DNA of 64,000 nucleotides, taken from the NCBI GenBank assembly GCA_902614905.1, contig CACMMN010000004.1, positions 1 through 64,000 on the forward strand. The letters are read 5' to 3'. The notes beneath the pieces are model-generated. The model ran no database searches, was not told the DNA's origin, and saw only the letters and a list, made by a program, of their open reading frames with translations. Every line of letters begins with the position of its first letter. Position 1 is the stretch's first letter. The translations under genes were made by a program, and so were the position numbers. Of the stretch, positions 4,588 to 7,739 are shown piece by piece. The DNA is from an uncultured Pelagibacteraceae bacterium (GTDB lineage Bacteria; Pseudomonadota; Alphaproteobacteria; Pelagibacterales; Pelagibacteraceae).

Positions 4588-5703
4588 ATGAAAAATATTT
4601 TAAATTCTCTTGGATTTGAAAAGAGCCCAAAAGATACAACTATAGTTGTTGCAATGTCTGGAGGGGTAGACTCTTCTACTGTTGCAGGCATGATGAAAAA
4701 AGAGGGCTATAAAGTAATTGGGATAACACTGAAATTATATGATGACAATAAAGAGGTAGCTGCCTCAAAAACTTGTTGCTCAGGTCAAGATATATTTGAT
4801 GCCAAAAGAGTAGCTAACAAATTAAATATTGAACACAAAATTTTGTATTATCAAAATAAGTTTAAGGAAGGTGTAATAGACAACTTTGTAGATAGCTATC
4901 TTAAAGGAGAAACACCTATTCCATGTGTTCAATGTAATAAGACAGTAAAATTTAATGATTTATTTCAAGAGTCATTAAATATTAAAGCAGATGCTTTAGT
5001 TACTGGTCATTATGTTAAAAGTATAACAAAAAATAATCAAACGGAAATGTATAGAGCTGTTGACACAAACAGAGACCAGAGCTACTTTTTATTCAACACT
5101 ACTAGAGACCAATTAAACTTTTTAAGATTTCCATTAGGAAAATTGTTAAAAAAAGAAACCAGAGAAATAGCACAAAAACTTCAATTAAATGTTGCAGACA
5201 AACCTGATAGTCAAGATATTTGCTTTGTGCCAAATGGTGATTATGTATCAGTTATCCAAAAATTCAGACCTGATGCATTTAAAAAAGGAAATATAAAAGA
5301 CTCTTTAGGTAAAGTTTTAGGAGTACACGATGGGATTGTAAACTTTACTATTGGTCAAAGAAGGGGAATAAAAATCGCAGCAAAAGAACCACTGTATGTT
5401 ATTGATATAAATTCTGATAAAAACGAGATAATCGTTGGTGAAAAAAAAGAATTAATAAAAAAAAATATTAATTTAAAAAACTTAAATCTTTTAGCAGACG
5501 AAATGTGCTTTAATAAAAATATTTTTGTAAAAGTGAGATCTACAGGTAAGCTTTTGAAATCTAAACTAAATTTAAATAATGGTAAAACTTCTTTAACACT
5601 ATTAGAAGATGAATATGGTATTTCGCCAGGCCAAGCATGTGTTTTTTACCAAAAAGATAAATATGGAGATAGAGTTCTTGGTGGAGGATGGATTACTAAA
5701 TAA
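4588..5703 (+). CDS. mnmA: tRNA-specific 2-thiouridylase MnmA
   Basis: [68 protein letters not shown]. Confidence 0.95.
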
Positions 5704-6393
5704 TTAATTCTGTTTCTTCCACATAAAGAAAGTTAGAACATAAAACAATATTACCCCTAGAAAAAAATCCCATTCCAAAGCGTGCTTTATATGTTTATTA
5801 CCTGGCATACTTACTATTGGAATACTAACAATCATTACAAAAACTAAAAAAGATACTAGAATAGCTTTTAATTTAAGAAATTTTAGATTTATAAATTCTA
5901 ATAATTTATTCTTTATTGAGTAAAAAGTAATTACCAAATAAGCTTGAGCCACTACCTCAAAAATAATAAAGATTAGCATTATTACTCTTCTGAATAATTT
6001 ATATAGATCATAATCAAATTTAATTCCTAAAAATATAGAATGAATAACTAAACAAATAGCTGAACCTACCCCAAAAATTAAAATTTTTTTTGTATTTTTA
6101 TGTTCTCCGTGTATGGCTAAAATAATTTTTTTAATATAAAGCCAATATCTTACTAACAAGTAGGCTGTTATAAACATGGCTGGCTTAAAAATTAAGTATG
6201 TTGGAAAAACTCTAGCTGTTCTACTTATTGAAGCCCCACCATCTATGTAAGGAATTGTAAAATGAATAACGTGTTCTTTATTTGGAAAAAGATCGTGAAA
6301 ATTTGTAATTAATATTAAACAAGTATTAATAGCAACGAAGGGAACTATAAAAATCCATATACTAATGGATTTAACTTTGTTTATTGTATCCAT
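5704..6393 (-). CDS. Multi-TM membrane protein, possibly Frag1/DRAM/Sfk1-like
   Basis: 229 aa, several hydrophobic segments; ISRTARVFPTYLIFKPAMFITAYLL and a late HALEWDFFLGVILFYVLTFF faintly recall Frag1/DRAM proteins. Family assignment uncertain. Confidence 0.4.
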   Translation of the reverse strand: MDTINKVKSISIWIFIVPFVAINTCLILITNFHDLFPNKEHVIHFTIPYIDGGASISRTARVFPTYLIFKPAMFITAYLLVRYWLYIKKIILAIHGEHKNTKKILIFGVGSAICLVIHSIFLGIKFDYDLYKLFRRVIMLIFIIFEVVAQAYLVITFYSIKNKLLEFINLKFLKLKAILVSFLVFVMIVSIPIVSMPGNKHIKHALEWDFFLGVILFYVLTFFMWKKQN

Positions 6394-6404
6394 TTTGAGT
6401 AGAT

Positions 6405-6488
6405 TTATTTTTTCTTATTTTTTTTTCTAGCTCTTCTTTTTTTTGATCCCATTTTTCTTCTACCACGATGTTTCTTTGGGTATCCCAT
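6405..6488 (-). CDS. Very small, highly basic protein (27 aa); candidate ribosome-associated or COX24/AURKAIP1-like small protein
   Basis: Minus strand: GGAGG (6495-6499) 6 nt upstream of ATG 6488, encoding MGYPKKHRGRRKMGSKKRRARKKNKKK*. Not in ORF track because of its length. Confidence 0.65.
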   Translation of the reverse strand: MGYPKKHRGRRKMGSKKRRARKKNKKK

Positions 6489-6563
6489 ATATAACCTCCA
6501 TTTATTATTTTATTGACATATATCTTGGATATAGCATTGTCATATTTAGTTATCAAATTTTTT

Positions 6564-7739
6564 ATGGGTTATTCATTTAAAACTTTTTTAAAACATACTG
6601 CTAAAGATTTCTATAATCAGTCAGTAAATCCCCCAGTTGTTAGAGCATCTACAATTTTGTTTAAGTCTCTTAATGACATTAGAAAAACTCAAAAAAAACA
6701 CTTAAAAGATCCTACTGGAGGCCATTTTGATTATGGAAGGCAAGGAACTTCGACAACACATGCATTATCAAAAATTTTAACAAAATTAGAAGAATCATAT
6801 CATGTTTTCCTAACACCAACTGGTTTTGGTTCCGTTTTTCTTGCAATGTTTAGTGTAGTAAGACCTGGAGATGAAATTCTAGTTTCTGATCCAGTATACA
6901 GTCCTACGCGAATATTAACTCAAGATTTTTTCAATGATTTTAATATTAAAGCCATATTTTATAATCCAAGAGATTTGTCCACATTGAAAAATAATATAAC
7001 AAAAAAAACAAAATTGATATTTGTTGAAAATCCAGGCAGTAACACATTTGAATTTCAAGATCTCTCAAAAATAATTTCTATTGCCAAAAAAAATAAAATT
7101 TTTACAGCTATGGATAATACATGGGGAACTCCATATTTTCTAAAACCTATTAAATTAGGATTTGATATGGCTATCGTATCGGCAACCAAATATTATTCTG
7201 GACACTCAGATGTAATGGGAGGAAGTTTAGCAGTCAATAAAAGGGTATTTAAATTTGTTCAAAAAGCAGAAAAAATTTCTGGTTTAAGAATGGGACCCGA
7301 TGATGCTTATTTAATAATTAGAGGTCTTAGAACTTTAGATACGAGATTAGATAGACACGAGATAAATACAAAAAAAATTGCTTCTTTTTTAAGTAAACAT
7401 AAAAAGATTACAGTTTTATATCCTTATAAAAAAGGAACTAAAGATTATAAGATGTGGAAAAAATATTATAAAGGCTCCTCAGGTCTAATGGGCCTCAAAA
7501 TAAAATCTAGAAATATAAGCTCCATAGATAGATTTGTTAACTCTTTAAGATTGTTTGGTTATGGTTATAGTTGGGGAGGTTTTGAAAGTTTAGCTTTGCA
7601 CCAAAAAATAAAAGAACAAGGAAAAAGAAAATACTTGAATTTATCAAAAGATGAACACATTGTTAGATTGCATATTGGTTTGGAAGATCCTAAAGATTTA
7701 ATAAAAGACTTAAAAAATTCATTAAAATTTATTAAATGA
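6564..7739 (+). CDS. metC: Cystathionine beta-lyase / Cys-Met metabolism PLP-dependent enzyme
   Basis: VSATKYYSGHSDVMGGSL PLP-Lys motif; TAMDNTWGTPYF; SWGGFESL C-terminal motif. Start at 6564 (MGYSFKTF) preferred. Confidence 0.85.
   Translation: MGYSFKTFLKHTAKDFYNQSVNPPVVRASTILFKSLNDIRKTQKKHLKDPTGGHFDYGRQGTSTTHALSKILTKLEESYHVFLTPTGFGSVFLAMFSVVRPGDEILVSDPVYSPTRILTQDFFNDFNIKAIFYNPRDLSTLKNNITKKTKLIFVENPGSNTFEFQDLSKIISIAKKNKIFTAMDNTWGTPYFLKPIKLGFDMAIVSATKYYSGHSDVMGGSLAVNKRVFKFVQKAEKISGLRMGPDDAYLIIRGLRTLDTRLDRHEINTKKIASFLSKHKKITVLYPYKKGTKDYKMWKKYYKGSSGLMGLKIKSRNISSIDRFVNSLRLFGYGYSWGGFESLALHQKIKEQGKRKYLNLSKDEHIVRLHIGLEDPKDLIKDLKNSLKFIK

Follow-up and report, generated by a model that had tools for sequence, protein, structure and literature searches.

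Among the very small ribosomal proteins described so far, bS22 of Borrelia is a previously unannotated protein with 61% Lys/Arg that was identified in cryo-EM density after mass spectrometry had missed it as the single ribosomal protein; its pocket is formed by h2, h27, h44 and h45 of the 16S rRNA and faces H68 of the 23S rRNA (PMC10618245). It is the nearest precedent for the peptide analysed in this work. The proteins bS22, mS38/COX24 and eL41 share with our peptide a length of about 25–33 aa (more in the mitochondrial forms), about 60% Lys/Arg and a basic helix, and the bacterial bS22, just like the peptide, has its own tiny gene, often unannotated. Nevertheless, no significant sequence similarity was found between the peptide and bS22, mS38 or eL41, which lack its N-terminal YPKK[HR]RGRRK, and no phage copies of bS22 were encountered in the literature consulted, whereas the peptide has them. 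The bS22 proteins considered were those from Bacteroidota and Borrelia (7jil chain 5, 8fmw chain V), with Actinobacteria represented by NF047430. The 30S protein bTHX (PF17070, TIGR04560) is likewise highly basic, starts with MG and comprises 27 aa in Thermus, but the peptide has neither its GKGD start nor its RPRKK end, and an alignment of the two is no better than that of shuffles. Finally, phages encode exchangeable ribosomal proteins, e.g., bS21, and the peptide resembles bS21 and other viral ribosomal proteins in being a host gene carried by phages of marine bacteria (PMC6375957). In sequence it is unrelated to bS21, for which incorporation into the ribosome has been demonstrated (PMC6375957), whereas for the peptide it is proposed.

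The peptide gene lies in a 64-kb stretch of Pelagibacteraceae DNA (64,000 nucleotides; hereafter, the window), the relevant features of which are listed in Table 1. Direct translation exactly reproduced the minus-strand gene of 27 aa plus stop given in a preliminary description, and Lys/Arg accounts for 16 of the 27 residues (59%, compared with the “about 60%” stated there); the GGAGG at 6 nt before the ATG was located as well, and the longer overlapping ORF (6371..6556, 61 aa) starts with TTG and indeed occupies a different frame. The peptide gene is the sole ATG ORF in the window that combines a length of 20–60 aa, at least 55% Lys/Arg and an SD-like site, and 20 windows simulated with a Markov-1 model yielded no counterpart. 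A genome-wide search showed it to be single-copy in its own genome.

Table 1. Positions of the peptide gene, its expression signals and its neighbours in the window.
Feature	Position	Strand	Evidence or remark
27-aa coding sequence MGYPKKHRGRRKMGSKKRRARKKNKKK plus stop	6405..6488	-	translation, orthologues, 107 distinct coding sequences, NG86 dN/dS
Shine-Dalgarno GGAGG, 6 nt before ATG	6495..6499	-	sequence; SD-like site at 126/126 loci encoding the identical protein
near-invariant promoter block GACAATGCTATATCC, with -10 TATATC (6528-6533) inside	6527..6541	-	upstream alignment
probable -35 TTGATA, spacer to -10 of 17 nt	6551..6556	-	position conserved upstream
metC-like gene	6564-7739	opposite to peptide gene	Cys_Met_Meta_PP (Pfam)
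membrane-like protein, 229 aa	5704-6393	- (same as peptide gene)	
mnmA, beyond the membrane-like gene	4588-5703		identity read from sequence

Orthologues of the peptide were detected in 85 of the 101 genomes of the same genus and in 249 of the 297 Pelagibacteraceae genomes sampled (115/127 for the near-complete ones). Eleven near-complete genomes without the peptide were searched for mnmA; ten of them also lacked mnmA, and in the eleventh it is truncated by a contig end, so that in these misses the peptide locus is mostly just unassembled. The joint absence of the mnmA–peptide region from assemblies scored as 90–99% complete (G151, G168, G240, G152, G158 and others) could stem either from repeated assembly gaps at this place or from a loss of the two together in some genomes. 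Two assemblies, G089 (C13, C17) and G110 (C62, C66), each contain two differing versions of the peptide and are possibly mixed genomes.

The 194 distinct loci comprise 163 coding sequences that specify just 25 proteins, and 107 distinct DNA sequences, differing by up to 21 nt, all specify the very same protein of 27 aa. The mean NG86 values over related loci (dN 0.062, dS 1.34) give a dN/dS of about 0.05, which is not near neutrality; all 194 intact loci keep the ATG, and no frameshift was seen, so that these signs of decay, named in the preliminary description as refuting the gene, did not appear. The alternative frames are not kept: over the span tested, stop codons interrupt one of them in 164 of the 194 loci and the other in every locus. 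Moreover, the protein of one phage contig (L290) is identical over its first 25 residues to that of the alphaproteobacterial family f141 even though the corresponding DNA matches at only 59 of 75 nt. Short length and an A+T-rich genome might still suggest an ORF arisen by chance or a conserved RNA without coding function, but the synonymous versions, the dN/dS value, the simulated windows and the phage homologue with diverged DNA refute this explanation, which we regard as next to impossible. Conservation settles that the ORF did not arise by chance: it is a real, unannotated gene, just as the proposal of a missed small gene had it, with strong conservation, an apparent promoter of its own and homologues in phages. 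As to codon usage, Gly codons 9 and 14 are GGC in about 70% of the 194 loci vs. about 16% across the ORFs of the window, possibly owing to a constraint at the RNA level or to uneven sampling of clades.

Alignment of the upstream regions within the genus revealed that the promoter block is conserved in almost all of them amid varying flanking bases, with TTGATA, TTGATT or TTGAAT at the conserved −35 position. Taken together, the block and a TTGA-type −35 at a distance of 17 nt argue for a dedicated promoter of the peptide gene, which appears to be conserved in the SAR11 genus. A generic promoter consensus scan gave it no score, since the last base of the −10 is C instead of T. Within the window's genus, the anticipated preservation of the SD sequence holds for almost every locus, but it fails in some other genera and in the outside families, where the SD is absent. 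From the conserved promoter and SD, the peptide is presumably expressed. In family f31 (L085-L087, L260-L288), there is no SD upstream of the peptide, and a conserved −10-like element, TATTATAC or CTATAGTG, stops roughly 6 nt short of the ATG, thus suggesting that the f31 mRNA may be leaderless, in contrast to the 5′ leader with SD in SAR11.

The genomic context differs between lineages. In Pelagibacteraceae, the peptide is found between metC and mnmA, in f31 beside a gene clustering with the MFS-like gene (MFS transporter) of the window, in f24 beside an rpoH-like gene, and in f141 beside LysR-like and SbmA-like genes; except for the Pfam-tested metC, these names come from our reading of the sequences. 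The membrane-like gene between the peptide and mnmA, whose product has no match in Pfam or NCBIfam, is present or absent depending on the lineage. Its start shortly after the peptide stop, in the window and in many relatives, would fit a Lys/Arg attenuator leader peptide controlling this gene. However, several genomes (L111, L113, L114, L116, L126) have the peptide without the membrane gene at this position, the residues are conserved beyond Lys/Arg codons alone, and the locus has neither a terminator-like hairpin nor an Rfam match, the sub-threshold Rfam matches all lying elsewhere. The genomes without the downstream gene largely refute a leader function, which is thus highly improbable. The lineage-specific neighbours and the presence of the peptide where the membrane gene is absent indicate that the gene is independent of any neighbour.

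Among 385 sampled Alphaproteobacteria, clear matches to the peptide were limited to the window's family and to f24, f31 and f141, three families outside its order. In the order represented by G416 (a complete genome of 1.41 Mb), which we suspect to be HIMB59, it was present in all 20 near-complete genomes, and the homologue from this second order is 78% identical across all 27 residues. In contrast, the peptide was not found among the genomes listed for f174, the sister family within the window's own order. Candidate matches in f174 were rejected as unrelated frames, and weak matches in other Proteobacteria (E 0.02–1) look like pieces of unrelated frames as well; in a search of genome contigs, the best 80 matches all belonged to SAR11. 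Having been found in Pelagibacteraceae and in the second order but not in f174, the peptide provides a clear and testable evolutionary character.

Bacterial and phage members have in common the near-invariant motif Mx[YF]PKK[HR]RGRRKxGS, followed by a Lys/Arg-rich tail, the length of which differs among the phage members; 12 N-terminal residues hardly vary between bacterial families and phages. For a 33-aa phage homologue (L300; mean pLDDT 83, pTM 0.40), AlphaFold2 predicted an extended segment at residues 1–14 and a basic C-terminal helix at 15–31. The N-terminus is conserved residue by residue, which argues for specific contacts, and the free exchange of Lys and Arg in the helix may point to contacts with backbone phosphates.

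A scan of viral contigs, which are metagenomic, found the peptide family in 12 of them; a search with a degenerate motif detected 26, whose translations all proved to be true members, and one further contig was picked up by another pattern, giving a total of at least 27 phage contigs. Searches of the phage collection by tblastn gave no matches, and a search at the DNA level was no better; the tblastn result has little weight, since the low-complexity filter probably masks Lys/Arg-rich queries. In the pelagiphages HTVC023P and HTVC027P, in DSL-LC04 and in roseophage CRP-901, cultured phages with related virion genes, the motif was absent from the stretches examined. The likeness between L290 and f141 suggests an exchange between host and phage in either direction.

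The location of the phage genes bears on function. In one phage group (L293), the gene sits in a structural module, between virion-protein-like and Cpn10 genes, and in another (L300) between DnaA_C and HNH genes in a region with integrase-like genes. Both arrangements would suit a nucleoid or DNA-binding (protamine-like) peptide or a non-ribosomal RNA-binding one, e.g., an arginine-rich peptide with RNA polymerase or a small RNA as its target, which phages would use for DNA condensation or transcription control; besides, such a charge would bind any nucleic acid. On the other hand, non-specific condensers usually evolve fast in sequence, unlike the nearly fixed N-terminal residues of the peptide, and other phage locations indicate translation. 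For instance, tRNA genes flank the peptide gene of L303, with tRNA-Ser at a distance of 20 nt, on a stretch that holds ten tRNAs and a tmRNA; in L316, it is surrounded by a tmRNA and 13 tRNAs; and in L313 and L326, tRNAs occur on the same stretch. The phages L303, L316 and L326 are possibly related and hence should not be counted as three independent observations. The dense arrays of L303 and L316 are interspersed with deaminase-like and unknown small genes. We consider a nucleic-acid-binding role elsewhere the main rival of a ribosomal one, albeit a rather unlikely rival.

Sequence searches in Pfam, NCBIfam, PHROGs and the PDB gave no match to the peptide family, no curated model was found to recognise it, and its motif was not encountered in the open-access literature searched; searching revealed no SAR11 ribosome structure or proteome. 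A fold search in the PDB gave no structural match either, which for a single helix has little weight. The resemblance to COX24, bS22 and bTHX noted in the preliminary description turned out to be no better than that expected from composition, and the profile check gave no match over the cut-off: COX24_C (PF08213) had none in the window's own genome, NF047430 nothing above its curated cut-off in nine relatives, and the bTHX models PF17070 and TIGR04560 were unmatched, with TIGR04560 below cut-off in nine SAR11 and related genomes. In composition-preserving shuffles, the family compared with bS22 mostly gave p values of 0.1–0.9, and 61 of 120 column-shuffled profiles reached the real bS22 score. 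These tests have low power, because accepted cross-phylum bS22 pairs and curated libraries fail likewise: F. johnsoniae bS22 gave p 0.32 with that of M. smegmatis, whereas its pairing with that of Borrelia passed (p 0.0005), and it is itself unmatched by the curated libraries.

A special case of a ribosomal role would be a divergent bS22/mS38/eL41 orthologue occupying the same 16S rRNA pocket. Size and charge agree, the peptide stretch [RH]K[VMI][AG][TS][HK]KR aligns by eye with RHKVATHKR of F. johnsoniae bS22, hhalign gives the same register (columns 8–19 vs. 7–18), and the phage member MGFPKKRRGRRKIGSKKRKNRKKNKKR reached p of about 0.03 against F. johnsoniae bS22, an uncorrected value from one of many comparisons. 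Yet most members stay within the shuffles, the COX24_C and NF047430 searches were negative, and the conserved YPKK[HR]RGRRK has no counterpart. Such orthology is, in our opinion, unlikely.

Taken together, the results allow us to propose that the peptide represents a new family of small basic proteins, most likely ribosome- or rRNA-associated (with a probability of about 0.55). It shows the general traits of a small basic ribosomal protein, being short, very basic, under strong purifying selection and equipped with its own signals. The original proposal of a ribosomal or RNA-binding protein is plausible. More specifically, and only tentatively, it may be a ribosomal family restricted to the SAR11 and HIMB59-like lineages, without relation to bS22 or bTHX, and adopted by several unrelated phages, whose infected hosts would then contain phage-modified ribosomes. 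We infer rRNA as the partner, a pocket in it and the reason for phage carriage. According to this proposal, the peptide would be a stable part of the translation machinery, as a protein of the small ribosomal subunit or otherwise bound to rRNA. The N-terminal motif segment would thread into a conserved rRNA pocket and make sequence-specific contacts, and Ser15 would cap the basic helix, which would run along rRNA phosphates and thus tolerate Lys/Arg swaps, an architecture resembling that of bS22, mS38 and eL41 at the decoding/intersubunit region. Like bS21, the phage copies might modify or maintain the host ribosome. Several points speak against the ribosomal reading: the gene is not adjacent to ribosomal genes, its product has no sequence match to any ribosomal protein, and many unrelated small genes also sit in tRNA-rich phage regions. 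Furthermore, its absence from f174 and nearly all other sampled Alphaproteobacteria means that it is not a universal ribosome component.

SAR11 bacteria are heavily streamlined. Numerically, they rank among the most abundant cells on Earth (PMC6375957). That so abundant and streamlined a group keeps a 27-aa protein nearly letter for letter argues for an important role. Should the peptide prove to be ribosomal, the ribosome of SAR11 would contain a component that has gone unrecognised, and a further type of tiny ribosomal gene would be present in phages.
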